Source of the DNA: Acidimicrobiaceae bacterium
GTDB taxonomy: Bacteria > Actinomycetota > Acidimicrobiia > Acidimicrobiales > RAAP-2
Assembly: GCA_003133075.1 (NCBI GenBank)
Contig: PKZN01000043.1
Span: 22,475 to 54,596 of the forward strand
Length of the DNA: 32,122 bases
Direction of reading: 5' to 3'
In this document: positions 4,903 through 32,100 of the stretch, in pieces
How positions within the stretch are numbered: position 1 is the stretch's first letter
Layout: the number at the start of each line of letters is the position of its first letter
The notes under the pieces: generated by a model
Seen by the model: only the letters and a program-made list of their open reading frames with translations
Told to the model about the DNA's origin: nothing
Database searches by the model: none
Position numbers and translations under genes: made by a program

Positions 4903-5172
4903 TGGCCAAACAATACGGACCGGGTGTGACTTGATGCTTGACCTTGAGACGGTCTTCGGGAACGGCCCGACGACCTGCACACACCCTCCGCCCTTCCCAG
5001 CACACAACTCGCGTTCGTACCCATACCAGCCATCCTGTCCTCAGGTCCCCTCTCCCTCAGAAGCATTTCGTCTCTCCTTCAGTAAGCCTTCGATTTTTTG
5101 TCTCACACGTCTGGCACTCTCGGCGGAACTCGCCCAACGCCGACAGTTGGGTGCGATGGAAGTCCTGACATC

Positions 5173-8100
5173 ATGATGACGATCCGACGCCTCACCATCG
5201 GATCTGGCTACAAATACCTGCTCAAGTCCATCGCTGTTGGCGACGGGCCCACGAGTGCCGATACCTCAAATCTCGTCCGCTACTACAGCGAGTCCGGCAC
5301 GCCACCGGGCGTGTTTCTCGGCGCAGGTCTTGGCGGACTTGACGGCGGCCGCGGTGTTGCGACGGGCCAGAGCGTCACCGCAGAGAACCTCAGACGGATG
5401 CTTCAAGAATGCGCCGATCCCGTGACGGGAGAGGTGCTCGGTCGTGCCCCGAGTGCGAAAGCCGTCGGAGGCTTCGACCTCACCTTCAGCCCTTCGAAGA
5501 GCGTGTCCGTTGCCTGGGCACTTGGTGACAGGCAGACCCGCGACGTCGTTTACCGGTGCCACCAACAAGCGGTCGCCGAGGTCCTCGCCTACGCCGAGCG
5601 CGACGTTTTCCGCACCCGGTCCGGCACTCGAGGCTGCGTCGAAGAAGAAACGCTCGGCGTCGTAGCGGCGAGCTATACCCACTTCGACTCGCGCGACGCA
5701 GATCCCCAGCTTCACGATCACGTCGTCGTTCTTAATCGCGTCCAGGCGACGAGCGACGGCCGCTGGCGCACGCTGGACAGTCGAGGACTGTTCTCGTCAG
5801 CGGTGATGCTCTCCGAACTCCACCAAGGTGTGTTGTCCGACCTGCTCACTGAAGAACTCGGTTGGGACTGGACACCGCACGCTCGACGTTCCAGTCCGGT
5901 TCCCAAGTGGGAGGTCGCTGGCGTCTCGCCAGCGCTCATGGGCGAGTTCTCACGGCGCACTGCGGCGATCGTCACAGCCAAGGACCAACTCATCGCCGAG
6001 TTCGAGATTGACCACGGCCGCCCCCCCACTGACGTCGAAGTGTTGAAGTTGCGCCAGACCGCAACGATCGCGACGCGACGCGCGAAGAAGGGCCTCAGTC
6101 TCGGCCAACTGACCACGACGTGGACCGTCCGCGCCCGCCCCTACCTCGACGACGAACCGACCGCCTGGGTCCACGAACTAGGCAATAACATCGTGGCCAC
6201 GTTCGCGAGCGGCGACTTTACCGACGAGATCTTGCGCGATCTGGCGAGAGCATCATTGGACGTAGTGAGCTCGAAGCGTCCAACGTTTTCGAACGCCAAC
6301 ATTCAGGCCGAAGTTCTTCGCCAGCTGCAGGCAGTCCGTTTCAGTGATCCTTCTGAACGCATCCTGACGGCGAAGCGCACAACCGAACTCGCGCTGAAAC
6401 AAGCTCTCCTCATTACCATGCCGAGCCTGCACCACACGCCACGTTTTCTACTCCGCAATGACGGTTCTTCGAAGTTCCAGTCAACCGGGCACTGGCTCTA
6501 CACCACGAAGACGTTGCTCGACGCCGAAGCGCGCCTGCTCGCCGCAGGTCAGCGAGTCGACGCGGACGTGGTGCCCAGGAGTGCCGCATCGACCATCACC
6601 AAGAGCCGTCTCCCCGGCACGGGGCTTACCCTGTCCGAGGACCAGGCGCGCTGCCTGCACGCCATCACCACATCCGGTCGAGCGCTCGACCTACTGGTCG
6701 GACCGGCGGGCACCGGCAAGTCAACCGCGATGGCGGGCCTGCGAGCTGTCTGGGAGGTCGGTCACGGTCAAGGCTCGGTTCTGGGACTCGCCCCGTCCGC
6801 GGCGTCGGCGGAGGTCCTGGCAGAGGAGATGGGTATCGAAACCGACAACCTCGCGAAATGGATCTACGAACACCGCCAACACGGTCGACGCGTGCGCGAG
6901 CTTGCAACCTTACGGGAACGAGCCCGCACGGTCCGACGCTTCGGTCGCGGATCGAGTTCCCATTTACGCTCGGCGGCCGCTCAACGTGAAGCGGTCCTTC
7001 AACGTTGGACGCTCCGTGCGGGACAGCTGGTGGTCGTGGACGAAGCCAGTCTCGCCTCGACCTTCGCCCTCGACGAACTCGTGTCCGCTGCCGGCGACGC
7101 AGGGGCAAAAGTGGTGCTCGCCGGTGACTGGGCGCAGCTCTCCAGCATTGACGCCGGCGGAATGTTTCGTACATTGGTACGCGACAGGGGCGACGACGCA
7201 CCGACGTTGAGGGACGTTCGACGGTTCAAGTCCGCATGGGAGAGGTGCGAAAGCCTGAAGATCCGACGCGGCGATCCCACTGCGCTCCACGCCTACCACT
7301 CCCGCGACCGAATTGTAGAAGGCAGTCGCGACCATCTCCTCGACTCGCTCTACGCAGCGTGGAACGCCGACTGTGAACGCGGACGACGATCGCTCATGCT
7401 GGCCGGTGACGCCGAGACCGTCGCGGAGCTCAACCTGCGAGCACAGACCGACCGAGTAAAGAGTGGCCTCGTTGTTGACGTCGTCGGTCGCGGAGGCGGC
7501 TTGATGGTCGGCGTGAACGACCTGGTGGTGACGCGCCAGAACGATCGTCGACTCGTCACCGACGGGGGGTGGGTGAAGAACGGCGACGAATGGCGCGTGT
7601 TCGCGGCACATAAGGACGGTTCGCTGAGCGTCATGCGTACTAAGGGCTCTGCCTCAGTGCGGTTGCCAACCCGCTACGTTGCCGAGCACGTTGATCTGGC
7701 TTACGCGTCGACGGCGCACCGCGCCCAGGGTCGCACCGTCGACACCGCGCACGCCTTCGTGAGTCCGGCCACGACTCGCGAGGTCCTCTACGTCGCGCTC
7801 ACCCGTGGCGCTGAGGCTAACCACCTCTATGTGGACACCCACTACGACCCTGATCCCGATACGGGCCACGACGGTCTAGCCGCGACACCGAGCGCGGTTG
7901 AGGTGCTGGAAGGGGTGCTGCGGCGCGAGGGGGCAGAAGTGTCCGCCACCGACATGATTCGTACGGCTCAGAGTGTGTCCATTGCCACGTTGGTCGCGGA
8001 ATACGAGACCATCGTCGCCTTAGCTGATGGTGAGCGCTGGAAGACGCTACTTCTCAAGTCGGGACTCAGCGGCGCAGAGCTCGCGCGAGCAACGTCCTCC

Positions 8101-8721
8101 CCCGCTTATCCCACCTTGGTCTCAAAACTGCGGGAGGCGGAGCAGAGAGGTCTCGACGTTTCGGTCGATCTTCGCCTGCTCGTTAAGGGCCGTTCCTTCG
8201 ACGACGCGGTTGACGTGGCGAACGTGCTCCATCAGCGCGTCAATGACTTTCTGAGCGCGGTGGATTTTCCTGCTCTCGTCGATGAGCAGCTCGTAGTCGG
8301 TCTCTTTCCGCGACCGATTGCCTCCATTGATTCCGACACCGACAGGGCAATCGGGGATCGCGTCGACGCCATCGAACAACGGGCGCGCGAACTCGCAACT
8401 CTCGCAATTGAACGCGGCGACGACTGGGTACGGGCGTTCGGTTCTCCACCAGCGGACCGTGACGCTCATGAGTGCTGGCTACGGGTCGTCACCGACGGCG
8501 CCGCTTATCTTGAGCGCTGGGGAGGTGAGGACATAGTCCGGCATTCTGGTAACAATCCCCAAGCCTGTGACCAGGACTCTCACCGAAATCGCATTCTTGC
8601 TGCCGCGCAGATCGTCAACACCGACTTCGCGATACCGAGTGCGCGACTGGAATCTGTCTCCTCAAATTCAGAAAACGCTCTTCCTCAGATTTGGAGCCAA
8701 GACTTTGTGCTCGAAACGTAA
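5173..8721 (+). CDS. MobF (TrwC/TraA-type) conjugative relaxase with C-terminal helicase
   Basis: N-terminal GFDLTFSPSKSVSVAWAL, histidine motif DPQLHDHVVVLNRVQ, Walker A VGPAGTGKST, VVVDEAS, AYASTAHRAQGRTVD; likely start ATG at 5173 (MMTIRRLTIG). Confidence 0.93.
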   Translation: MMTIRRLTIGSGYKYLLKSIAVGDGPTSADTSNLVRYYSESGTPPGVFLGAGLGGLDGGRGVATGQSVTAENLRRMLQECADPVTGEVLGRAPSAKAVGGFDLTFSPSKSVSVAWALGDRQTRDVVYRCHQQAVAEVLAYAERDVFRTRSGTRGCVEEETLGVVAASYTHFDSRDADPQLHDHVVVLNRVQATSDGRWRTLDSRGLFSSAVMLSELHQGVLSDLLTEELGWDWTPHARRSSPVPKWEVAGVSPALMGEFSRRTAAIVTAKDQLIAEFEIDHGRPPTDVEVLKLRQTATIATRRAKKGLSLGQLTTTWTVRARPYLDDEPTAWVHELGNNIVATFASGDFTDEILRDLARASLDVVSSKRPTFSNANIQAEVLRQLQAVRFSDPSERILTAKRTTELALKQALLITMPSLHHTPRFLLRNDGSSKFQSTGHWLYTTKTLLDAEARLLAAGQRVDADVVPRSAASTITKSRLPGTGLTLSEDQARCLHAITTSGRALDLLVGPAGTGKSTAMAGLRAVWEVGHGQGSVLGLAPSAASAEVLAEEMGIETDNLAKWIYEHRQHGRRVRELATLRERARTVRRFGRGSSSHLRSAAAQREAVLQRWTLRAGQLVVVDEASLASTFALDELVSAAGDAGAKVVLAGDWAQLSSIDAGGMFRTLVRDRGDDAPTLRDVRRFKSAWERCESLKIRRGDPTALHAYHSRDRIVEGSRDHLLDSLYAAWNADCERGRRSLMLAGDAETVAELNLRAQTDRVKSGLVVDVVGRGGGLMVGVNDLVVTRQNDRRLVTDGGWVKNGDEWRVFAAHKDGSLSVMRTKGSASVRLPTRYVAEHVDLAYASTAHRAQGRTVDTAHAFVSPATTREVLYVALTRGAEANHLYVDTHYDPDPDTGHDGLAATPSAVEVLEGVLRREGAEVSATDMIRTAQSVSIATLVAEYETIVALADGERWKTLLLKSGLSGAELARATSSPAYPTLVSKLREAEQRGLDVSVDLRLLVKGRSFDDAVDVANVLHQRVNDFLSAVDFPALVDEQLVVGLFPRPIASIDSDTDRAIGDRVDAIEQRARELATLAIERGDDWVRAFGSPPADRDAHECWLRVVTDGAAYLERWGGEDIVRHSGNNPQACDQDSHRNRILAAAQIVNTDFAIPSARLESVSSNSENALPQIWSQDFVLET

Positions 8722-12892: not shown

Positions 12893-13858
12893 CTAGTTTC
12901 CGCCAAGAGGGACATCTTCGGGCAATGCGTTTCCCGTCCTCACGTCTGGAGGCACCGACTCAGCGCCTTCCATTGAATTGCCGCGCGGAAGTGCCTCAAG
13001 GCTGTCACGCGGCACCTCGTGGAATTCTTTCGTCTTCGCATTAGGAAGATATAACTTTGATGGCCACATCGCGCTTTCGGCACATGCAACACACAATTTC
13101 AGGGCGGCCTCCACGTCCGGCTTCTGCCTCATCATTCCCTCGATGGCGGCGTTTACTGGGTCGGCACATTGCCGGTCAATCGAGAAGATGGGATATTCGC
13201 GTCCATTCCAAACTCCCTTCAAAGAACGAGTTTCAAATAGAAGTGCTCTTTCATGATCTTCGATGTGTTTGTGGGTCTTGTCCCAAAGGCAAATCAGCAT
13301 TGCCCAAGCAACTTCGAGAGTCATCGTGAATAGTCTCTGAGAACTGGCAGCAACGACCCTAAATCCTGTATCAATTCCTGGTCCGAAATAGTCATACAGA
13401 AATTTCTTTCCGTCGCTAGATTTGATGGCCTCATGGTTTAACTCGACCACACCTTTGTCACTCACTTCGGTTGTGGGATCTCGCGGTATTGAACTTTGAC
13501 TGTCCGGTCCGGGAAAGGTACCGATGAAACCACCCCCTTTCGTACTTAAGGACGTATCTCTTAAATAGTCCGTCTCATACTTGTCCATCGCTTTGAGCCA
13601 GAGACTCACCGCCGCGCAAATGTCTTCCTCGCTTCGAACGCGAGAAAAGAAGAGCATCTCGTCACCGAGAACCTTCCAAAGTTCGAAACCAGGACCATAT
13701 TGGTGTTCAAGAGTCAAATCTCCGAGAACCTGCGGAAATCCACGGTAGAAAGAGAGGAAAGTCTCGCGCCACCCTTCGACGTTTTGCTGCTTATAAGCCG
13801 TGGATCCCACTACGTCGCACGACAAAAACAAGAGTGACTCCGCCACGGAGCCGCTCAT
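12893..13858 (-). CDS. Class III nucleotidyl-cyclase-like protein (possible Pycsar-type cyclase)
   Basis: 321 aa; LLFLSCDVVGSTAYKQQ and WKVLGDEMLFFS match the two metal-Asp segments of the class III cyclase core; YFGPGIDTGFRVVAASSQ downstream. Confidence 0.65.
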   Translation of the reverse strand: MSGSVAESLLFLSCDVVGSTAYKQQNVEGWRETFLSFYRGFPQVLGDLTLEHQYGPGFELWKVLGDEMLFFSRVRSEEDICAAVSLWLKAMDKYETDYLRDTSLSTKGGGFIGTFPGPDSQSSIPRDPTTEVSDKGVVELNHEAIKSSDGKKFLYDYFGPGIDTGFRVVAASSQRLFTMTLEVAWAMLICLWDKTHKHIEDHERALLFETRSLKGVWNGREYPIFSIDRQCADPVNAAIEGMMRQKPDVEAALKLCVACAESAMWPSKLYLPNAKTKEFHEVPRDSLEALPRGNSMEGAESVPPDVRTGNALPEDVPLGGN

Positions 13859-14352
13859 GTAAGCCTGAGGACCTCGGCGCGAATCTCAGCTGCCGCGGGG
13901 GAAACGTCGAACACTTGAGCAATGTGGAAGAAATTTGAGCCAAATCTCTCATATTGGTTCTTAAAGCTTTCTTTCGGCATCAGAAGGGAGGCCGCAAAAA
14001 AATTCGCCTGCGTTTCGAGTCGGTTTTGACCCCCGCGCTGAAAGGCCATTTCGCCAGTTTCGCCCAACTGGAGATAGTGCAAGAAGTAATGGCCCAACTC
14101 GTGCGCGAGGGTGAATTGATCGCGTCTCTGAGAGGTGTGGTTCGGGAGAAAAATGGTGAATTTGCCTTCGTCGGCCACGAACAGAGACTCGTCAGTATCC
14201 ACATATTCAATCTGTCCGCCCAAAGTCTTAACCAGATCTTTTAGGTTTGCTCGGCCATCCGCGTCATAAATCTTGTATTTCGTACCTATGCGCTCTGCGT
14301 ATTGCTGAATGGCATCATAAGACAATTCTGAAGCCCGCTGCGCTTGCCCCAT
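13855..14352 (-). CDS. ImmA/IrrE family metallo-endopeptidase
   Basis: FTLAHELGHYFLHYL (HExxH), RLETQANFFAASLLMP. Confidence 0.9.
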   Translation of the reverse strand: MGQAQRASELSYDAIQQYAERIGTKYKIYDADGRANLKDLVKTLGGQIEYVDTDESLFVADEGKFTIFLPNHTSQRRDQFTLAHELGHYFLHYLQLGETGEMAFQRGGQNRLETQANFFAASLLMPKESFKNQYERFGSNFFHIAQVFDVSPAAAEIRAEVLRLT

Positions 14353-14737: not shown

Positions 14738-15373
14738 CTATGACCCAAACGGACTTTCTGAAGATAGGTCACTTCTGCCATAGTCTGGCCAAATGACGGG
14801 AGATGTGGCCCACTCAGGTTGAGGTGTCTCTCCGACGCGCCACATCTCCCGATGTTCGACTATTGCCCTTTTCGAACCGTCCTTTACAACTAAGAATCGA
14901 TAGCGGTTGCCAAGGATGTCTTTCGTGAAGATTGCGCCGAGCGACTCCGAATTGTGATTGAAGCCATCTTCTGCTTTCCATGTCGAAAGCGGCACCGAAG
15001 TCGCAGCGTCAAGCACCTGGTCGGCAAGAGTTTTTAGGGAAACGCCCGGCGGGATATCAATGGCCGACGTAAGCCAACCGTCTTGGCCATCCTGTTTGAC
15101 GACGAGCCGACACGACAATGCCGGACCTCCTCCCGCGTTGGTCAGTTCGATGCCGTTGACTGGACCACCAGTTCCCACAGCACTCTGAAACCAACGAACG
15201 CCGGGCGAAGGCTGCCACCGAAGTTCTCGATCTCGAACGACCTCTGCAATGAGTTTGTTTGAAGCGTTGACCTCATCAGATGCGGTTCTCACGAGCGATC
15301 GATTCTGCCGCAAAGTAACAGCGCTCACCGCGGCGAGACTCAGTGTACCGACGGCGGTTCTATAGATGGCCAA
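14738..15373 (-). CDS. Hypothetical protein with N-terminal hydrophobic segment
   Basis: 211 aa open frame; apparent TTG start, no ATG upstream before an in-frame stop, so the 5' end is uncertain. Confidence 0.4.
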   Translation of the reverse strand: MAIYRTAVGTLSLAAVSAVTLRQNRSLVRTASDEVNASNKLIAEVVRDRELRWQPSPGVRWFQSAVGTGGPVNGIELTNAGGGPALSCRLVVKQDGQDGWLTSAIDIPPGVSLKTLADQVLDAATSVPLSTWKAEDGFNHNSESLGAIFTKDILGNRYRFLVVKDGSKRAIVEHREMWRVGETPQPEWATSPVIWPDYGRSDLSSESPFGS

Positions 15374-16141: not shown

Positions 16142-16462
16142 ATGTCAGGAACTCCCCGATACTCACCCGAGCTGCGTGAACGTGCAGTGAAGATGGTGCA
16201 AGAACGCCGCCAGGACTACAGGTCCGACTGGGCGACGGTCACGGCCTTCTCAAAACTGTTCGGCATGTCGCCCGAGACGCTGCGAACTTGGGTCCAAAGG
16301 ACTCAGGTCGATCAAGGCAGTCGCCCTGGTCTTACCACTGACGAACGAACTCGCCTCAAAGAGTTGGAACGCGAAGTGCGCGACTTGCGACGGGCCAATG
16401 CCATCTTGAAGGATGCCTCAGTTTTCTTCGCGACCGAGCTCGACGGTCAAACGCGGAGGTAG
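16142..16462 (+). CDS. IS3-family transposase OrfA (HTH)
   Basis: YSPELRERAVKMVQE, FGMSPETLRTWVQ, LEREVRDLRRANAILKDAS leucine zipper. Confidence 0.92.
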   Translation: MSGTPRYSPELRERAVKMVQERRQDYRSDWATVTAFSKLFGMSPETLRTWVQRTQVDQGSRPGLTTDERTRLKELEREVRDLRRANAILKDASVFFATELDGQTRR

Positions 16463-16614
16463 TCACCTACATCGACGCTCGCAAGAGCCGGTGGGGAGTC
16501 GAGCCGATCTGCAGGGCCCTGCAGTTTGCTCCCACGACCTATTACGCCGCCAAGACGAGAGCCACCTGCGCGCGCCGGATTCGCGACGAGGAACTTAAGG
16601 CTGAGATCAGACGC

Positions 16615-17385
16615 GTGCACCACGACAACTTCGCCGTTTACGGCGTCGTCAAGGTCTGGAAACAGTTGCAGCGCGAGGGCCACTCGGTCGCGCGCTGCAC
16701 CGCCCAGCGGCTCATGAAAGACCTGGAACGGCAAGGCGCCCGGCGTGGTCGCCGGTTCAAGAAAACGACCTTCGGCGATGACCAACTGCACCGTCCGAGT
16801 GACCTCGTCGATCACCAGTTCGTCGCCAGTGCACCGAATCGTCTCTGGGTCGCGGACCTGACCTACGTGAAGACCCACAGTGGCTGGACCTACGTGGCGT
16901 TCATCATCGACGTCTTCAGCCGAGCCATCGTGGGCTGGCAGGTGTCGAACTCGTTACGCAGTGACCTCGCGATCGACGCGCTCGAGATGGCGATCTTTGC
17001 GCGAGGCGACCGAGACCTGAGTGAATTGATACATCACAGCGATCGTGGAGTCCAATATTTAAGTATTCGCTACTCGGAGCGACTCGGTGAAGCCGGCGTC
17101 GTCGCATCAGTTGGGAGTCGCGGCGACAGTTACGATAATGCGCTCGCCGAATCGTTCAACGGACTCTTCAAGACGGAACTAATCCATCGGCAAGGACCTT
17201 GGCGCAACGTGGAACACGTTGAATGGGCGACGCTTAACTACGTCGACTGGTTCGATCGACGGCGTCTGCACGGCGAGATCGGCATGGTCCCGCCTGCAGA
17301 GTTCGAGGCTCGCTACTATCACTCGAACGAGTCAGAAAGTCTGGCCGGTTTGGAAGGAATTTTGTCTACACAACACCCGGCGTGA
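16615..17385 (+). CDS. IS3-family transposase OrfB (DDE integrase); frame extends upstream to about 16420 for -1 frameshift expression
   Basis: DLTYVKT, HHSDRGVQY, GDSYDNALAESFNG; in-frame ...EVVTYIDARKSRWGVEPICRALQ upstream of the track start. Confidence 0.93.
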   Translation: MHHDNFAVYGVVKVWKQLQREGHSVARCTAQRLMKDLERQGARRGRRFKKTTFGDDQLHRPSDLVDHQFVASAPNRLWVADLTYVKTHSGWTYVAFIIDVFSRAIVGWQVSNSLRSDLAIDALEMAIFARGDRDLSELIHHSDRGVQYLSIRYSERLGEAGVVASVGSRGDSYDNALAESFNGLFKTELIHRQGPWRNVEHVEWATLNYVDWFDRRRLHGEIGMVPPAEFEARYYHSNESESLAGLEGILSTQHPA

Positions 17386-17652: not shown

Positions 17653-18183
17653 TCAGACGTGTCCTCTGATGCCAAGGTTTACAAGCCGATAGTCCATCGC
17701 TTGACGGCTTACTCCGAATTGTTCCGCCAATGAGTCCACAAGAACGTCCACCGAGTCATCTGGACCGAGGCCCGTTTCTGTAACGGCGCGCATCACCAAA
17801 TCCTTTGGCATAAGTAGCTCCGCGGCAAACGCATTGGCTTGAATTTCTTCTTGGTCCGTCCCGGCACTCGATCGGTCGTCGCGGAAATCCACGCGAACGA
17901 GGCGATCTACGAACACCTTTCTCCCCTGGTGAAGGCTCATATGGCCAATCTCGTGAGCGATCGAGAATCGTTGACGCACATCAGGATGTCCCGTATTGAC
18001 GCCGATGACTGTACGCGTCCCATCTCGATACAGCATCGCTGAGATATTGCCGTCGAACGGTTCATATGTGATGGACGCACCGAGACTTCGAGCTATCGCC
18101 TCAACTGGAACGGGTGGTCGACTCACTCCCTGTTCCTTTAGTACGGCCTGGGCCTTTTCTTCTACGTTTCGCTTATCTGGCAT
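17653..18183 (-). CDS. ImmA/IrrE family metallo-endopeptidase
   Basis: RFSIAHEIGHMSLHQG, EIQANAFAAELLMP. Confidence 0.92.
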   Translation of the reverse strand: MPDKRNVEEKAQAVLKEQGVSRPPVPVEAIARSLGASITYEPFDGNISAMLYRDGTRTVIGVNTGHPDVRQRFSIAHEIGHMSLHQGRKVFVDRLVRVDFRDDRSSAGTDQEEIQANAFAAELLMPKDLVMRAVTETGLGPDDSVDVLVDSLAEQFGVSRQAMDYRLVNLGIRGHV

Positions 18184-18514
18184 TTCTCATCGCTCCTATA
18201 TCGTCATCGGTAACGATCGGTTGGATTTGGCGAAGCACCCACGCCTGAGACGCTTCATCCATTCCTTGCAAGCCCCCCGGAAGATTCTCGTCTCCAGTCG
18301 AGCTCCGCTCGGGCAACAGTGCCGTTGGTTCTACACCAAGGGCCGCGGCCATATCGATGAGGAGGTGGAGCGGAACGCGCTGACGACCTTTTTCAACGTT
18401 CACGATGGATGTGCGACTGAGCGACACGCGCTCGCCGAGAAGTTGCTGCGACATCCCGTGATCTCGACGGGTACGCGCGAGGAGTCGTCCGAAATCTCGG
18501 TAGAAAACCTCCAT
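18173..18514 (-). CDS. XRE-family HTH transcriptional regulator
   Basis: LLARTRRDHGMSQQLLGERVSLSRTSIVNVEKGRQRVPLHLLIDMAAALGV; overlaps the ImmA gene by 11 bp. Confidence 0.9.
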   Translation of the reverse strand: MEVFYRDFGRLLARTRRDHGMSQQLLGERVSLSRTSIVNVEKGRQRVPLHLLIDMAAALGVEPTALLPERSSTGDENLPGGLQGMDEASQAWVLRQIQPIVTDDDIGAMRNAR

Positions 18515-18549
18515 GTGTTCAGCCTACACATTACGTCAGTGATGCTGAC
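18514..18549. promoter_or_regulatory. Two operator-like inverted repeats in the XRE/Bil-like divergent intergenic region
   Basis: TGTGT-N7-ACACA (18514-18530) and GTCAG-TGATG-CTGAC (18535-18549). Confidence 0.45.
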
Positions 18550-18681
18550 ACGTTTGCTTCACCAACACCCCCGTATGGAATACGGACAGTGGTGATAACG
18601 TGATGAGAACGACCCGAGTGCTCGAGGACGGCTCAAGTCGAGCCGCAGTTGCAAGGGCGCGAGTCGCTTAAGGAGTTGCGG

Positions 18682-18957
18682 ATGTCAGAGAACCCCGAAC
18701 ACGAGATCACGCTGATCATCGTCTATGGAGTAAACAAGCCCCTAACGGTCCAAGAGGACGAGACAATCGAGACAGTCAAGCTCGACGCGATGGAACTCTT
18801 CAGCATTGCCCGGGAGGACAAGGACAAATTCGTCCTCAAGACCAAGGTCGACGAGAAAGAAGAACAGCTCGAGGAGGCGGAAAAGGTCGAGCATTATCAC
18901 CTGAAGAACGATCAGAAGGTCACCCTCGCTGCCGGAACGCCTTTCGGCGAGCGATGA
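18682..18957 (+). CDS. bilA: Ubiquitin-like beta-grasp protein (BilA-like / DUF2604-like)
   Basis: 91 aa; ATG at 18682 preceded by AAGGAG; EITLIIVYGVNKPLTVQEDETIETVKLDAMELF...HYHLKNDQKVTLAAGTPFGER; first of four overlapping genes with E2/JAB/E1. Confidence 0.75.
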   Translation: MSENPEHEITLIIVYGVNKPLTVQEDETIETVKLDAMELFSIAREDKDKFVLKTKVDEKEEQLEEAEKVEHYHLKNDQKVTLAAGTPFGER

Positions 18958-19427
18958 CCGATGAGGCGATCTCGCCCGAGGATGAATCAAAGGCACATGC
19001 AAGGGAGCAGTACCGAATGATCTCGGCGCAACAAGACGAGTATGGCTGGCAGTCGACGATCATCGATGTCGGCGACTACGTCGTGACTTTCGTCCGAGTC
19101 GAAAAACCTCTTGGTCGAACCTTCGTCATGCGTTTGAAGTTCGACGACTACCCCGAGATAGCCCCAGAACTACGGTTCATAGACCCGGTTGCCGTTGACG
19201 ACTCCTTGGCTGAAGCTGAGGCAGGTGCAGTCTTCTATCCCATCGGTCCTCACATCGTCGATGCCAACCAAGGTCGTGGCCCGCTTCCTGTCCCGTGCAT
19301 CATCGGTCACCGTGACTACTACGCGGCAGGTTGGCACGGTGGCTGGAGTAATCCACCGACTCGGGAACACTCTCCTTACCAGCTCGTCATGAACGTGCGA
19401 AACGCGATTCTCAATGTTTGGTCGTAA
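18954..19427 (+). CDS. bilB: E2-like ubiquitin-conjugating-fold protein (BilB-like)
   Basis: FDDYPEIAPELRFIDPV, candidate catalytic Cys in LPVPCIIGHRDYY; ATGA overlap with the Ubl stop. Confidence 0.75.
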   Translation: MTDEAISPEDESKAHAREQYRMISAQQDEYGWQSTIIDVGDYVVTFVRVEKPLGRTFVMRLKFDDYPEIAPELRFIDPVAVDDSLAEAEAGAVFYPIGPHIVDANQGRGPLPVPCIIGHRDYYAAGWHGGWSNPPTREHSPYQLVMNVRNAILNVWS

Positions 19428-20040
19428 GGGTCATCGCGACCGGGCCTCGACTGTCGCAACGCCGCGCGTAGTTGTTCAGCCGGAGCTGACATCAGTCCGC
19501 GTGTCTACGAGCAAGCCTAAGACTCCTCGCGCGCTCGGTCGAAGAGACGTGGAGTTTTCATTCGAGCGCGTGTTCGTGCCTTCACTCATTGTTGATCACA
19601 CAGAGTTGGTCCTTCGACAGGCCGGGCAATGCGGTGAGGAGGGGTTCGTCGTATGGGCGGGATCCATCGCCGAAGGCAACGCGTACATCTGCTCGTTAGT
19701 AATCCCGAAGCTCGAACTCGGTAAGTATGACGGCGAAGTCAGCGCGGAGACTACCGCCCATCTGCTCGAAGCTCTTGACGAGCGAGATCTCGTCCCCCTT
19801 CTCCAGATCCACAGTCACCCACGGGCCGCATTTCTGTCCCCCATCGACGCCATTCGGCCGCTCGTTGCGGTACCCGGCTTCATGTCGATCGTCCTACCGC
19901 ACTTCGGCTTCATAGACCTCGCGGAGGTCGCGAACTGGTCGGCACATAGGTTCCTCGGCGCGGGCGGGTGGCACGAACTCTCCGAAGGTGAGCTCGCTCA
20001 TCAATTCATAATCGACGACTCGATCATTCGAGTTGACTAA
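19414..20040 (+). CDS. bilC: JAB/JAMM-domain peptidase (BilC-like)
   Basis: HSHPRAAFLSPID JAMM-type motif, upstream EGFVVWAGSIAEGN; overlaps the E2 gene. Confidence 0.82.
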   Translation: MFGRKGHRDRASTVATPRVVVQPELTSVRVSTSKPKTPRALGRRDVEFSFERVFVPSLIVDHTELVLRQAGQCGEEGFVVWAGSIAEGNAYICSLVIPKLELGKYDGEVSAETTAHLLEALDERDLVPLLQIHSHPRAAFLSPIDAIRPLVAVPGFMSIVLPHFGFIDLAEVANWSAHRFLGAGGWHELSEGELAHQFIIDDSIIRVD

Positions 20041-21377
20041 TGGCCATTGCCCTTCGGTCCCGACTCCATGAACTCGTAGGTAGCTCGGCATGCAGAACGA
20101 CCGCCCAGTTGGAGAGCCTGGGCATTAGACGTACCGATCGCCAGGTGGCTGTTGGTGTACGTCTTCCCTTGGCGGCCGATCCCGCACGTCGCCTCCTCGC
20201 GGAATCTCTTGTGGACATGCTTTTGCGGTTGGATCCTCTGGTTGGCGAAGTTGTGATCGATATGCCAGGTGGACACGAATTTGAGTGGGTCGCCGAGCTT
20301 GCGAGAAGAGTCCCATTCGAGCAGACCGATGTGAAGGCGCTACCGGAGTTCTGCGTGGGAGTTGGCGACTTCGATGGCGCTGCTCTACTCGTCGACGGCG
20401 CCGGTTGGCTCGCCGGGATCAGATCAACGGTCGAAGCGAAAGACGATGGTAATCCGGTAGGACCCTTGGCCGCGGCAGCGCTGGGCGCCGCCGAAATATT
20501 CAAGTGGGCGTTCAGTGAGGTGCATACCGAGCCATCGACCGCACCCGAACTCCGCGAGTGGTCGGGTGTTTTCTCTCTCTCGTCGTACGCATTCGATCTT
20601 GCCAATCCCCCAATGGGCCCCGTCAACCTGGACGCAACGCTCGTTGGCCTCGGTGGAGTTGGCGCCGGCGTCCTACGGGTGATCGCTGCACTTGGGTCCA
20701 GAGTGACCGGCACGCTCGCCCTCGTAGACGCAGACATGCTGACAGTGCACAACCTCAACCGAGTGTCATATTCGTCGACACAAGCCGCCGAGGCTGGTGC
20801 ATCCAAAGTCGAAGAAGCAACTCGATTTCTGCACATGCGCAGCCCAAACCTGACGGTCACTGGATTTCGCGAGACCTATGGAGAGTTCAAGCTCCGGACT
20901 CCTCTCCGCAAGGATCGCCGATATGACGTCGTGGTCGCCGGTCTTGACAATGACGAAGCCCGTTGGGAGATCCAACGGGATATTCCCCGCATTCTGATTG
21001 ACGGAGCCACAGGTCGAGACATGAACACTCGCGTGGAACGCGTTGAATTTGGTCGATACGGCTGCTTGGGATGCTCGCGACAAATGACGAGGATCCTCGA
21101 AGAGGACGCCAGAGATTGCGACGCTCCGCTGGACTCTCGCGCACCATCGCTCTCGTTTCTCTCCTCCTTTCCGGGTATCCTTGCGGCTGGAGAATTGATC
21201 AAAGAAGCGCAAGGAGCGTTCCAGCTTCGCGGGAGCTTTGACCACGTCTTCCGGTATGGGCCGAACCCCGACCTTCGTGGAACGCCCGAAAGGCGTGTCG
21301 ATTGCACCGTGGGCTGCTCTCGATCGGCGAAAATTAGCCAATATCACTCGAAATATCCGACCGAGCGTCTTGGCTAA
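20040..21377 (+). CDS. bilD: ThiF/E1-like ubiquitin-activating enzyme (BilD-like)
   Basis: Rossmann TLVGLGGVGAGVLRVIAALG...LALVDADMLTVHNLNR; YGCLGC and DCTVGC cysteine pairs; TAATG overlap with the JAB gene. Confidence 0.85.
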   Translation: MAIALRSRLHELVGSSACRTTAQLESLGIRRTDRQVAVGVRLPLAADPARRLLAESLVDMLLRLDPLVGEVVIDMPGGHEFEWVAELARRVPFEQTDVKALPEFCVGVGDFDGAALLVDGAGWLAGIRSTVEAKDDGNPVGPLAAAALGAAEIFKWAFSEVHTEPSTAPELREWSGVFSLSSYAFDLANPPMGPVNLDATLVGLGGVGAGVLRVIAALGSRVTGTLALVDADMLTVHNLNRVSYSSTQAAEAGASKVEEATRFLHMRSPNLTVTGFRETYGEFKLRTPLRKDRRYDVVVAGLDNDEARWEIQRDIPRILIDGATGRDMNTRVERVEFGRYGCLGCSRQMTRILEEDARDCDAPLDSRAPSLSFLSSFPGILAAGELIKEAQGAFQLRGSFDHVFRYGPNPDLRGTPERRVDCTVGCSRSAKISQYHSKYPTERLG

Positions 21378-21756: not shown

Positions 21757-22089
21757 ATGCGTCGACCACACACGTACACACCCCAAACTTCAGACGCCGC
21801 CCGGGTAATTGGGCTAGAAATTGCGCGAGCCCGTAGAAACCGTCGATGGACGGCAGCTGAATTGGCGAGCCGCGCCGGCATCAGCAGGACGACGCTATTA
21901 CGCGTCGAACACGGCGATCCAACTGTCGCGATTGGAATCGTCTTTGAGGTCGCAACTTTGCTCGGTATTCAATTATTTGGTGCGGACCGAAACGAATTAG
22001 CCGCGCTCGTGGGCCGAGGCCAAGAACGTTTGGCACTCCTTCCGGCTCGGGTTCGCGAGCCGGAAGGACCTGTAGATGACGACTTCTAA
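21757..22089 (+). CDS. hipB: HipB-like XRE antitoxin
   Basis: IGLEIARARRNRRWTAAELASRAGISRTTLLRVEHGDPTVAIGIVFEVATLLGI; overlaps hipA. Confidence 0.85.
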   Translation: MRRPHTYTPQTSDAARVIGLEIARARRNRRWTAAELASRAGISRTTLLRVEHGDPTVAIGIVFEVATLLGIQLFGADRNELAALVGRGQERLALLPARVREPEGPVDDDF

Positions 22090-23323
22090 CGCTGCGCCAA
22101 AGAGGGTTTACGTGTGGGTCTGGCTTCCAGGATCGACCGAGCCGGTTCCCGCCGGCGTGATTGAAAAGAGCGGCGAAGTCGCTTATTTCAACTATGGCCG
22201 CAGTTATCTTGAGCGAGAAAACGCCGTCTCCATTTATCTTCCAGAACTGCCGCTCCAGCGCGGGCGCATTCGACCCCTCCAAGGCTTAACGATCGCTGGA
22301 TGCTTCAGTGACGCGGGACCCGACGCTTGGGGCCGACGAGTCATTCGATATCGGATGCTGGGAACAGCCGACTTGGACTCGGAGGATGACGACCTCACGG
22401 AATTGACCTACCTCCTCGAATCAGGCTCCGATCGAATTGGAGCTATCGATTTTCAGTCAAGCCCTAAAATTTACGTTCCAAGGACTAGCGAAGCGACTCT
22501 CGCTGAAATGCAAGAGGCCGCAGAACGACTCGAAAAAGGCGTTCCCTTCTCAGCTGAACTTGAAATGGCACTCCTCCACGGTTCCTCAGTTGGGGGAGCC
22601 CGACCAAAAGCGCTGCTCAAGGACGGCGTGAGATCGCTCATTGCCAAATTTTCCTCAACTACAGACAGTTATCCGGTCGTCAAAGCCGAAGGTGTTGCGA
22701 TGGAACTCGCCAGACGAGTTGGATTAAAGGTGGCGCACACTGAAGTCATCGAAAGCTTGGGTAGGGACGTGCTGCTAGTGGAACGATTCGACCGGACCTC
22801 GACCCAAGGACAACGCCATTCGATAGTTTCCGCTCTAACCCTCCTGGAACTCGACGAAATGTTTGCACGATATGCCACATATTACGCCTTAGTGCCAATT
22901 ATTCAAGAGCGCTTTAGCAACGCACTTCCCACGCTGCACGAGCTTTTCTCGCGCATCGTATTCAACATATGCGTAGGGAACACCGATGATCACGCAAGAA
23001 ATCACGCTGCATTCTGGGACGGTACTTCGCTCACATTGACGCCCGCTTTTGACATATGCCCGCAGCAACGTTCCGGAGGCGAGGCTGTTCAAGCCATGAC
23101 AATTGCGCCAGGTTTCAGGTACAGCCAACTCGCTGGTTGCATCAAGGCGTCCGAAATATATTTCCTTTCGAAAGTTGAGGCAAGGCAGATTATTGACGAA
23201 CAACTCGAAATCATCCGATCCCAATGGACGGAAGCTTGTGACGTCGCCCGACTCACCGAAAGTGAGCGTTTACAACTTTGGCGACGACAGATCCTAAATC
23301 CTTACGCGACGGAAGGTCTCTGA
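22076..23323 (+). CDS. hipA: HipA-family serine/threonine kinase toxin
   Basis: GGARPKALLKDG, IAKFSS, FNICVGNTDDHARNHAAFWDG, LTPAFDICP. Confidence 0.92.
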   Translation: MTTSNAAPKRVYVWVWLPGSTEPVPAGVIEKSGEVAYFNYGRSYLERENAVSIYLPELPLQRGRIRPLQGLTIAGCFSDAGPDAWGRRVIRYRMLGTADLDSEDDDLTELTYLLESGSDRIGAIDFQSSPKIYVPRTSEATLAEMQEAAERLEKGVPFSAELEMALLHGSSVGGARPKALLKDGVRSLIAKFSSTTDSYPVVKAEGVAMELARRVGLKVAHTEVIESLGRDVLLVERFDRTSTQGQRHSIVSALTLLELDEMFARYATYYALVPIIQERFSNALPTLHELFSRIVFNICVGNTDDHARNHAAFWDGTSLTLTPAFDICPQQRSGGEAVQAMTIAPGFRYSQLAGCIKASEIYFLSKVEARQIIDEQLEIIRSQWTEACDVARLTESERLQLWRRQILNPYATEGL

Positions 23324-26765: not shown

Positions 26766-28364
26766 CTAAGGCGCTGAAATTCTAGAGAGCGTGACCTTGA
26801 TACCGAGATTGCGGAGTTGTCTCCCGCATTGCATAAGGTTCAACTTGCTGAAAAACGGGAGCCAATCGTTTTCTGCTTTGGAAGAATTAGCGATGACAAC
26901 GTACGAAACGGAATATCTAGACCTTTCAACCGTGCCGCTGGCGTCGGGCACTAGATCAAGCCAACCTGCGAGATTGCTCGCGTCCGATTTCAAGTTGAGT
27001 TCGCGGCGAATTTCGTCCCGAAAAGGCCCATCTGCAAGGAATGTAGACACCGAAATAATGCCCTGGGCAAAGAGGTGGCTCAAGGTTGATGATCGTGACC
27101 GTCTCTTTACGTGAATGAATTCTCCTTCTTTAGTAAACACATCGCACAATTCGATTCCACTCGATGCACCTCCCGGCCGTTTCACGCGAGCGTCTAAAAG
27201 AAGGAACTCGGTGGATGAAGAATTTGCCAATCTTGAGTTATAGGTTGGCTCAGTCTCTCCTGATTTGGACTGAATTAATGTCGCTGCGGCGCTCGGCAAA
27301 GATGCGACAAAAGAATCAACCTCGGACACCAATGATTCGTTAATCATGAACCAACGCCCCTCAATCAGAACGTACAACTGGCCATCCAAACGTTGTTCAC
27401 TAACCAGGCAGTGGTACAGATTCCATCTATCGTCCCAGTCACTCGATCTACTGAATCGAACTGCCACAGAACCACGTTTCAATTTCTCTAGGGAGATTTC
27501 ACTCCGCTTGGATCGAAGATTTTCTAGATACTTGTCCAAATCGAGATCGTCATATTCATGACTGCGAGTTCCCGCCATTTTGAATGCGTCGATATCCTCC
27601 CAACCTATGTTTTCGGGTATGGCCATGTGAGTTTTTGAAGTATCGGCCGCTCGTAATTGTTCAATAGTCAAGTTGTTTAACTTTTCAATCAACAGAGTCC
27701 CATTGACGAGTGTCAAGTTATCGATCCAGGCAAAATTCTCTTTATACGAATCCTCTTCGAATGCTCGAAGGAGTCCTTCGCAGAACTTCGATAGGTCTGC
27801 TGCAACGATCGGTGCGGTTACTACAAGGGCGTCGGCACCCGACAACGTCTTTGCGAACGACTCGTCTGAGGGCTTGCCCGTCACCGCTCGCAGAATGTCG
27901 CGTGAGATATCGACACCAAACGTCGGTAATTCGGAACTCTTACTTACTTGCGTGCTTTTGGCGACGACCATGTCCTCAAACGTCTTGGTATCGAGACTTC
28001 GAATTTGACTCGGGTCGATTCGATTGAGGGCTACCTTGAGCCCAAACCTATGCTCGATCTTTGATTGATTGAGGAATCCCCGCCCGTATCCGAAGGTGAA
28101 TGCAAAAAATCTACTTTCCACTTTCAAAACGAGAAGTCCAGATGCCGAAGAAGAAGTGACGGAGGCGAGATTGTCGTCCAAGAGGGGTTGCACGAATGAA
28201 ACCCATGCGGGTGGCGTTGCCGGACGCGAGTCGTAATAGAAAATGCCATCAGTAGCAACCGAGGAATCTAAGTGAATCGATTTGGGTTTCTTATCAGACG
28301 CAACCGCCTGGTCTGATTGATCGACATCCTTCAGCAAATAAATAGTAAGACGAATTGACTTCAT
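26766..28364 (-). CDS. TIGR04141/DUF6119-like sporadically distributed protein
   Basis: MKSIRLTIYLLKDVDQ..., FFAFTFGYGRGFLNQSKIEHRFGLKVALNRIDPSQIRSLDTKTFEDMV, TFGVDISRDILRAVTGKPSDESFAKTLSGADAL. Confidence 0.8.
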   Translation of the reverse strand: MKSIRLTIYLLKDVDQSDQAVASDKKPKSIHLDSSVATDGIFYYDSRPATPPAWVSFVQPLLDDNLASVTSSSASGLLVLKVESRFFAFTFGYGRGFLNQSKIEHRFGLKVALNRIDPSQIRSLDTKTFEDMVVAKSTQVSKSSELPTFGVDISRDILRAVTGKPSDESFAKTLSGADALVVTAPIVAADLSKFCEGLLRAFEEDSYKENFAWIDNLTLVNGTLLIEKLNNLTIEQLRAADTSKTHMAIPENIGWEDIDAFKMAGTRSHEYDDLDLDKYLENLRSKRSEISLEKLKRGSVAVRFSRSSDWDDRWNLYHCLVSEQRLDGQLYVLIEGRWFMINESLVSEVDSFVASLPSAAATLIQSKSGETEPTYNSRLANSSSTEFLLLDARVKRPGGASSGIELCDVFTKEGEFIHVKRRSRSSTLSHLFAQGIISVSTFLADGPFRDEIRRELNLKSDASNLAGWLDLVPDASGTVERSRYSVSYVVIANSSKAENDWLPFFSKLNLMQCGRQLRNLGIKVTLSRISAP

Positions 28365-30808: not shown

Positions 30809-31978
30809 TCATTTTCGCGGACGGACTTTCGATTTTTTCTTTGCCTGCTTCCTAGCGACGATGGACCCGATGAGTTCTGCGGCTTCCTGGTCCGCCGCTT
30901 CGACAAAGTGGCTGTAGACCTGTAGCGTCGTCGACGCATTCGAATGTCCAAGTCGGCCAGCCACAGTTCTTGCAGAGACACCGGCAGATATGAGTCGAGT
31001 CGCCGCGAAATGTCGGAAATCGTGAAGCCGAATCTGCGTCAGACCGAGATTGGCCCTCACTAATTCAAATCGACGCGTCACAAACGTCGGAAGTAGAGGG
31101 CGCTCGCCATCGGGTTCGAGGCTAAACACGAAACTCTCATCGGTGAGTGAAAGCTCAGCCAATTGGGCCAACTCCTCCGCGTGGGACCGTTGCTCGGCGA
31201 GCACATTCATGGTCTCGGCGTCAATCGCAATCCGCCGGCTCGCGTGGGTTTTCGTGTCCTTCTCTAGCCATCCCCCGCCGGGGGTTTCAATAATCGCGCC
31301 TTCGATGAGAAGTGCTGAAGATGCTGTGTCAACATGTTTCCACTTCAAGGCGCAGAGTTCACCGCGGCGTGCACCAGTAGTAGCGGCCAAATAGAGTAAG
31401 CGACCGAATACCGGATCCCGCTTTGCGGCCGCGGCCAACAACAACTGCACTTGCTGCAGGTCTGGCGGCGTCACTTCGCTTCGGAACATTCTCGGAAGAC
31501 TCACCAAACTCGCTGGATTCTCTCGAACCCATTTCCATCGCTCACCTTGTCGAAAGGCTTGGTGGATAATCGTGTGCACTCGTCGTACGCTGCTCGGCGA
31601 CAGACCCTTGCGCTTAACGAGGTTGTGATAAAGCAGGTCCAGATCTGCAGTCTGGATCTGACGGAGCGGCCACGTTCCAATGGCGGGAAGGATGTGGTTG
31701 TCTAGGAGCCCTCTGTACGAGCGAAGAGTTTGATGCCCGAGACCGGGCTTGGCGAGGTTAAGCCACTGTTCGGCCAGTTGGCTGAACGTCGCATTGGAGT
31801 TAGCTAGATTTCCCTGGTCGGCCTCAACGGCCAGTTGGTTCAGGGTCACCTGCGCATCTTTTTTCAATCCATGAAAGGTACGGCTGACCTGCCGATATTG
31901 ACCCGTAAGAGGGTCCAGCCCGGTCCTGACTCGCAATTCCCAGACCCCAGGTCGGATTTGGCGAAGCGAGCCGCTCAC
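30809..31978 (-). CDS. int: Tyrosine-type site-specific integrase
   Basis: ATTGARRGELCALKWKH, LHDFRHFAATRLISAGVSARTVAGRLGHSNASTTLQVYSHF; GTG start at 31978 with GAAAGG upstream preferred over the track start at 32086. Confidence 0.93.
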   Translation of the reverse strand: MSGSLRQIRPGVWELRVRTGLDPLTGQYRQVSRTFHGLKKDAQVTLNQLAVEADQGNLANSNATFSQLAEQWLNLAKPGLGHQTLRSYRGLLDNHILPAIGTWPLRQIQTADLDLLYHNLVKRKGLSPSSVRRVHTIIHQAFRQGERWKWVRENPASLVSLPRMFRSEVTPPDLQQVQLLLAAAAKRDPVFGRLLYLAATTGARRGELCALKWKHVDTASSALLIEGAIIETPGGGWLEKDTKTHASRRIAIDAETMNVLAEQRSHAEELAQLAELSLTDESFVFSLEPDGERPLLPTFVTRRFELVRANLGLTQIRLHDFRHFAATRLISAGVSARTVAGRLGHSNASTTLQVYSHFVEAADQEAAELIGSIVARKQAKKKSKVRPRK

Positions 31979-32034
31979 GTGGCACCTTTCCGGCTCCGTC
32001 CGGCGCCACAGGAAACGACGGCGTTTCCCCTTTG

Positions 32035-32054
32035 TGAGGGATAATTGAGGGATG
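32035..32054 (+). repeat. TGAGGGATA/TGAGGGATG direct repeats upstream of int
   Basis: TGAGGGATAATTGAGGGATG, 11-bp period. Confidence 0.8.
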
Positions 32055-32100
32055 CAAGTAGTGACTTCACAACGAAATTCTAGCATTTCCTTGCTACATA

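Follow-up and report, generated by a model that had tools for sequence, protein, structure and literature searches.

Phages, plasmids and genomic islands from at least six bacterial phyla carry a cassette of two genes, one for an M78 (ImmA/IrrE-type) protease and one for a class III nucleotide-cyclase-like protein. The protease is a dedicated, coevolving partner of the cyclase-like protein. The pair was analysed in the window, a stretch of 32,122 nucleotides from an Acidimicrobiaceae bacterium (contig PKZN01000043.1). The cyclase family, which previously had no name and is missed by the standard libraries, is now defined, tied to a protease across phyla and linked to a Pycsar effector. Pairing and distribution point to a signalling switch that has not yet been described. 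That the two proteins form a new signalling or defence module, acting as one switch in which proteolysis of the tail turns synthesis on (or in which the state of the cyclase gates the protease), is in our judgment an evenly balanced proposition. Beyond the first-pass annotation, which had proposed a cNMP-signalling defence module from the window alone, we find recurrence of the pair across phyla, a third catalytic segment (D-Y-F-G-P-G-I-D-T-G-F-R), a C-terminal tail present in paired members only, and PycTM beside three relatives.

The gene pair and the predicted cyclase fold

Both open reading frames are found on the minus strand at the positions annotated before. The protease gene (13855..14352) encodes 165 aa that comprise the protease domain only, and the cyclase-like gene (12893..13858) encodes 321 aa; the two are coupled by the ATGA stop/start overlap of 4 bp (13855..13858, minus strand) that had been noted. 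The protease matches Pfam Peptidase_M78 (PF06114, 1.7e-19, residues 54-159) and the PADLOC capP model (1.1e-24). Both the HExxH motif and the third-ligand glutamate segment of M78 enzymes are present, as a HELGH zinc-binding motif at residues 84-88 (14089..14103, minus strand) and as ETQAN at residues 113-117 (14002..14016, minus strand). HExxH occurs in 65/65 partner M78 proteins and the second glutamate motif as written in 64 of the 65, the remaining one reading EYEAHEFAA. Within the 165 residues of the window protease we recognised no ligand-binding or sensing domain. Known M78 proteases cut specific partner or regulator proteins, as in PprI-DdrO and CapP-CapH (PMC10904395, PMC13373217).

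Searches of Pfam, NCBIfam and PADLOC found no model that matches the 321-aa protein, and a sequence-only search of the PDB returned nothing useful; the PDB hits to a ribosomal protein and MCP2 were weak and were discarded as noise. For homology, we compared a profile of 89 members with 23 domains of class III cyclases retrieved with PF00211. The two were aligned by hhalign over 165 columns with a probability of 96.5 (P 8.5e-10), in a way that puts the three active-site segments of both families in register, and all controls (reversed, column-shuffled, M78) stayed at or below 1%. The cyclase fold that had been anticipated is indeed predicted by two AlphaFold2 models with Foldseek matches in the PDB. 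For the window protein (pLDDT 91, pTM 0.88) the leading matches are class III cyclases (best E 1.1e-7), and a distant paired member (pLDDT 91.3) matches PDB class III cyclases with E 3.6e-10. Profile, modelled fold and residues identify the 321-aa protein as a homologue of class III nucleotide cyclases, with an overall identity to known cyclases of 10-15%.

The segments CDVVGST and KVLGDE, read earlier as the two metal-binding Asp segments, are present and not there by chance, as D15 and GDE66 are invariant in about 107 aligned relatives. The first metal-binding aspartate, D15 (13814..13816, minus strand), is kept in 106/106 aligned relatives. The segment K62-V-L-G-D66-E67 (13658..13675, minus strand) aligns to K-T-I-G-D of class III cyclases and would supply the base-site lysine and, with D66, the second metal aspartate; GDE is kept in 107/107 relatives and K62 in 105 of them (98%), the other 2 having R. 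The third segment, D156-Y-F-G-P-G-I-D163-T-G-F-R167 (13358..13393, minus strand), aligns to T/D-x-x-G-D-x-V-N-x-x-x-R and holds the base-site Asp156 (98/108 relatives, 91%, with E in the other 10) as well as the catalytic Arg. Both metal-binding aspartates of class III enzymes are thus in place (D15 106/106, D66 107/107). The canonical catalytic Asn-Arg pair is found in altered form: Arg167 is kept and the Asn position is Asp163, both in 108/108 relatives. Conservation of the metal and base-site residues in homologues, on which the cyclase reading had been staked, holds at 91-100%. The invariant Asn-to-Asp change may mean a chemistry that differs from that of canonical cyclases, and the Lys62/Asp156 base site, which looks adenylate-like, suggests a purine product.

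Distribution, coevolution and the C-terminal tail

Relatives of the cyclase-like protein were detected by tblastn in 7 of 72,556 plasmids, in the Clostridioides phages phiC2 and phiCD27 and in the Leptospira phage LE1. Alignment-based scans yielded 19 and 42 loci in viruses and 164 in genomes, the best 80 of which were kept for analysis; a scan of viral contigs for close relatives found none. Of 398 evenly sampled genomes from the window's own phylum, just one, the window's genome, has the gene, so its distribution is very patchy. Pairs were found in Actinomycetota, Pseudomonadota, Verrucomicrobiota and Planctomycetota, on Leptospira replicons and in Clostridioides phages. Two phage members (L007, which is phiC2 gp41, and L035) carry a C-terminal Nudix-like domain after the cyclase-like domain; PDC-S07 matches were rejected as a cyclase identity, because the matched part is this Nudix-like domain.

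The pairing, known at the outset from one locus, does recur in other genomes: in 65 distinct relatives from several phyla an M78 gene lies directly upstream on the same strand. A candidate start codon of the cyclase gene is at most 30 bp away from the stop of the protease gene in 61/64 relatives, 15 of which (15/64) have the same 4-bp overlap as the window. In the cyclase tree, pairing is found on all deep branches, and the orphans fall nearly all into two alphaproteobacterial clades, Sphingomonadales/Phenylobacterium and Caulobacteraceae. The M78 tree, for which the model was seeded with partner proteases (a mild bias), places 63 distinct partner proteases in one supported clade (99/91). Only two non-partner rows fall inside it, L021, a near-copy of a partner locus, and L143, which sits on a very long branch; the other sampled M78s, including the window's own second M78, lie outside. 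The distances between cyclases correlate with those between their proteases, with r 0.88 for 57 non-redundant pairs and r 0.62 in the actinobacterial subgroup alone, and 0 of 2000 permutations gave a correlation as high. Among the relatives we looked for a protease-cyclase fusion and found none, and the unpaired phage member L038 contains no hidden M78 fragment.

The C-terminal tail of the window protein (residues 287-321, ending ...MEGAESVPPDVRTGNALPEDVPLGGN; 12896..13000, minus strand) is acidic and predicted to be disordered, with pLDDT 46-72. Paired cyclases extend 95-257 residues past the last conserved motif and have an acidic end, whereas orphans mostly extend 49-100 residues and end near-neutral; the net acidic charge of the last 40 aa is +5.9 in paired members vs -0.3 in orphans. 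Tails of the actinobacterial group are predicted to be disordered and share a recurring GAE...P...PL(G) pattern, and in the predicted model of an alphaproteobacterial member the tail forms a linker followed by a short terminal helix. Neither orphan alphaproteobacterial clade has the extra tail segment. Because tail and protease were lost together in two clades, we suggest that the tail serves the protease, and from this co-loss we infer that the protease docks on the tail or cleaves it.

The Phenylobacterium-type orphans look like a second, chromosomal use of the cyclase-like family. Several of these genomes hold two orphan paralogues on separate contigs (L099/L128, L107/L111, L105/L112, L124/L142 and L103/L137). 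One kind adjoins pyrE/pdxJ/acpS and a RelA/SpoT gene, and the other often lies by a PP2C phosphatase gene and sometimes by a TorF-like porin.

Neighbouring genes and the mobile island

We surveyed 132 immediate neighbours at about 49 paired loci; genes were called with a simple gene caller, because clustering of raw six-frame translations mostly picked up spurious GC-rich frames. PycTM, the effector of Pycsar, is gated by a nucleotide. As had been stated, neither PycTM nor PycTIR lies beside the window copy, yet PycTM is the next gene to the pair in three independent lineages: 27 bp upstream in Methylomonas fluvii, 4 bp upstream on the viral contig L035, and as gp40 of Clostridioides phage phiC2, convergent at 70 bp. 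The PycTM family PF18967 occurs in 11/298 actinobacterial genomes, and because it is this rare the adjacency is well above chance. A rough Poisson estimate for 3 of about 49 loci is 2e-9, or 3e-4 if defence clustering lifts the rate 50-fold, taking as background the rate of Actinomycetota, which may not be that of the PycTM-bearing lineages. PycTM beside three relatives strengthens the cNMP-signalling reading. The original proposal is partly supported: its class III cyclase assignment stands by fold and residues, and a role as a cNMP defence module is possible.

At about 46 of the 49 loci scanned, neither PycTM nor any other recurrent third gene lies beside the pair, and the window's own genome (79% complete) contains no PycTM. 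Integrases are near the pair in 8 loci; these aside, no third gene is common among the loci, and most copies therefore consist of the two genes alone. Further neighbours of some copies are GajA/GajB, AriA, a dGTPase and an RT-helicase match. Directly upstream of the window pair, on the same strand, a 211-aa protein with one N-terminal hydrophobic segment is encoded (14738-15373); it has no family match, and none was seen beside the relatives of the pair.

In the window, the pair is part of a mobile island that also carries a TrwC relaxase, a tyrosine integrase, an IS3 element, a ubiquitin-like operon, and HipA together with an Xre partner. The TrwC relaxase-helicase (5098-8721) and the tyrosine integrase (30809-32086) lie on either side of the region, so this island is probably either an integrative conjugative element or a plasmid that has integrated. 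An IS3-type transposase pair (two ORFs, 16142-17385) lies between the cassette and the ubiquitin-like operon. The region 17653-21377 contains a second M78 gene and an Xre gene (CapP 4e-34, CapH 3e-8), divergent from the ubiquitin-like operon, which encodes a 102-aa ubiquitin-like protein, an E2-like protein, a JAB-type protease (BilC 8e-11) and a ThiF E1 (BilD 2e-12); the arrangement resembles a Bub/Bil-type operon regulated by CapH/CapP. The same island also holds a HipB/HipA-like pair (21757-23323) and a full-length DUF6119 protein (26766-28364, 7.5e-154).

Proposed direction of control and relation to known systems

Our working proposal is a mobile protease-cyclase switch in which the protease acts on the cyclase tail and the resulting cyclic nucleotide reaches an effector; taken as a whole, we consider it plausible, if a little short of an even chance. 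The cyclase-like protein would work as a homodimer with two metal aspartates, a Lys/Asp base site and a catalytic Arg, and the protease would bind it through the acidic C-terminal tail. A stress or phage-derived cue would trigger the protease, which would then clip or release the tail and thereby switch the cyclase on. The cyclic mononucleotide would gate an effector, which may be PycTM where this lies beside the pair and elsewhere an unlinked or some other target. We favour a protease-controlled cyclase because M78 proteases cut their partners and this protease has no sensor domain, and because the tail of paired members only is a natural target and PycTM is nucleotide-gated. Cyclase activity, the nucleotide made, the trigger and the direction of control are what we infer. 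From mobility and neighbours, the function is possibly defence against phages.

The wiring could also run in reverse, with the cyclase-like protein sensing infection or the nucleotide state and, on binding or turning over nucleotide, releasing the M78 protease as a toxic or defensive effector that would cut a protein of the cell or of the phage. We regard this as rather unlikely; it remains close, because most loci have no other effector and a two-gene module without a third gene would need to hold its own. The minimal protease without a sensing domain would suit such a role, and the tail might act as a tether or a pseudosubstrate. However, known M78s cut specific regulators and are not general toxins (PMC10904395, PMC13373217), two cyclase clades persist without the protease, and the presence of PycTM next to the pair in three lineages suggests that the output is the nucleotide product.

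Alternatively, the pair might govern prophage induction or plasmid maintenance and have no part in defence, in the manner of ImmA-ImmR, an option that we hold to be improbable. It draws on the location of the pair, which in LE1 and phiC2 is the region for immunity or lysogeny conversion, on the integrases near 8 loci and the TrwC-relaxase element of the window, and on the control of ICEBs1 by ImmA-family proteases (PMC2701414). A repressor as constant partner is missing, however: neighbours of the relatives include no widely recurrent Xre or repressor gene, and beside the window pair there is none either, in line with the first-pass annotation, the closest Xre gene being 3.8 kb off (18173-18514) next to another M78 gene. 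The defence genes GajA/B, AriA and PycTM beside some copies and the chromosomal fixation of two orphan clades likewise speak against element control. Least probable of all is a dead cyclase whose nucleotide pocket is only a sensor or scaffold for the protease, since the Asp at the catalytic Asn position in all members and the 10-15% identity to known cyclases are set against metal Asp, Lys, base-site acid and Arg kept at 91-100% over very diverged sequences, which would be unusual for a dead enzyme, and against the PycTM adjacency, which implies a product.

The pair resembles several known systems in part. With Pycsar it shares the class III cyclase fold and metal aspartates, the small mobile cassette and PycTM in three lineages, and AnPycC (8jsz) is among the Foldseek matches of the window protein. 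Unlike in Pycsar, the pair has a constant M78 partner, most loci lack a PycTM-type effector (an adjacent PycTM or PycTIR being absent from the window and its genome and present in three relatives), the PycC models match neither P0001 nor any of 89 members, and the Lys and Asp base site looks adenylate-like, unlike the pyrimidine sites that have been published (PMC11224242). Class III adenylate/guanylate cyclases (CyaB, CyaC, Cya2, Rv1900c) have the fold, the metal Asp pair, the Lys/Asp base site and the catalytic Arg in common with the cyclase-like family, but this family replaces Asn by Asp, adds near-invariant W30, W61, K23, K107 and GFR, has the acidic tail and the protease partner, and is missed by Pfam PF00211. 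As in CapH-CapP and ImmR-ImmA, an M78 is encoded beside its presumed target and there is a tie to immune operons; the partner here is a cyclase and not an Xre repressor, which the window pair lacks, and the partner M78s form their own clade.

The open-access literature that we searched, with subscription journals and preprints outside its scope, contains no description of the protease-cyclase pair. Makarova et al. 2009 (PMC2701414) listed the LE1 and phiC2 proteases (COG2856) among Xre-associated operons; their direct partner in our analysis is the cyclase-like protein. If the proposal is true, proteolysis joins the ways in which bacteria switch on cyclic-nucleotide immunity, and unexplained temperate-phage genes, Leptospira LE1 ORF1/ORF2 and Clostridioides phiC2 gp41/gp42, gain a function. 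A review (PMC4009436) labels the gene beside the phiC2 DUF955 gene as tcdB-like; if this gene is gp41, with its cyclase-like and Nudix-like domains, the label looks mistaken.
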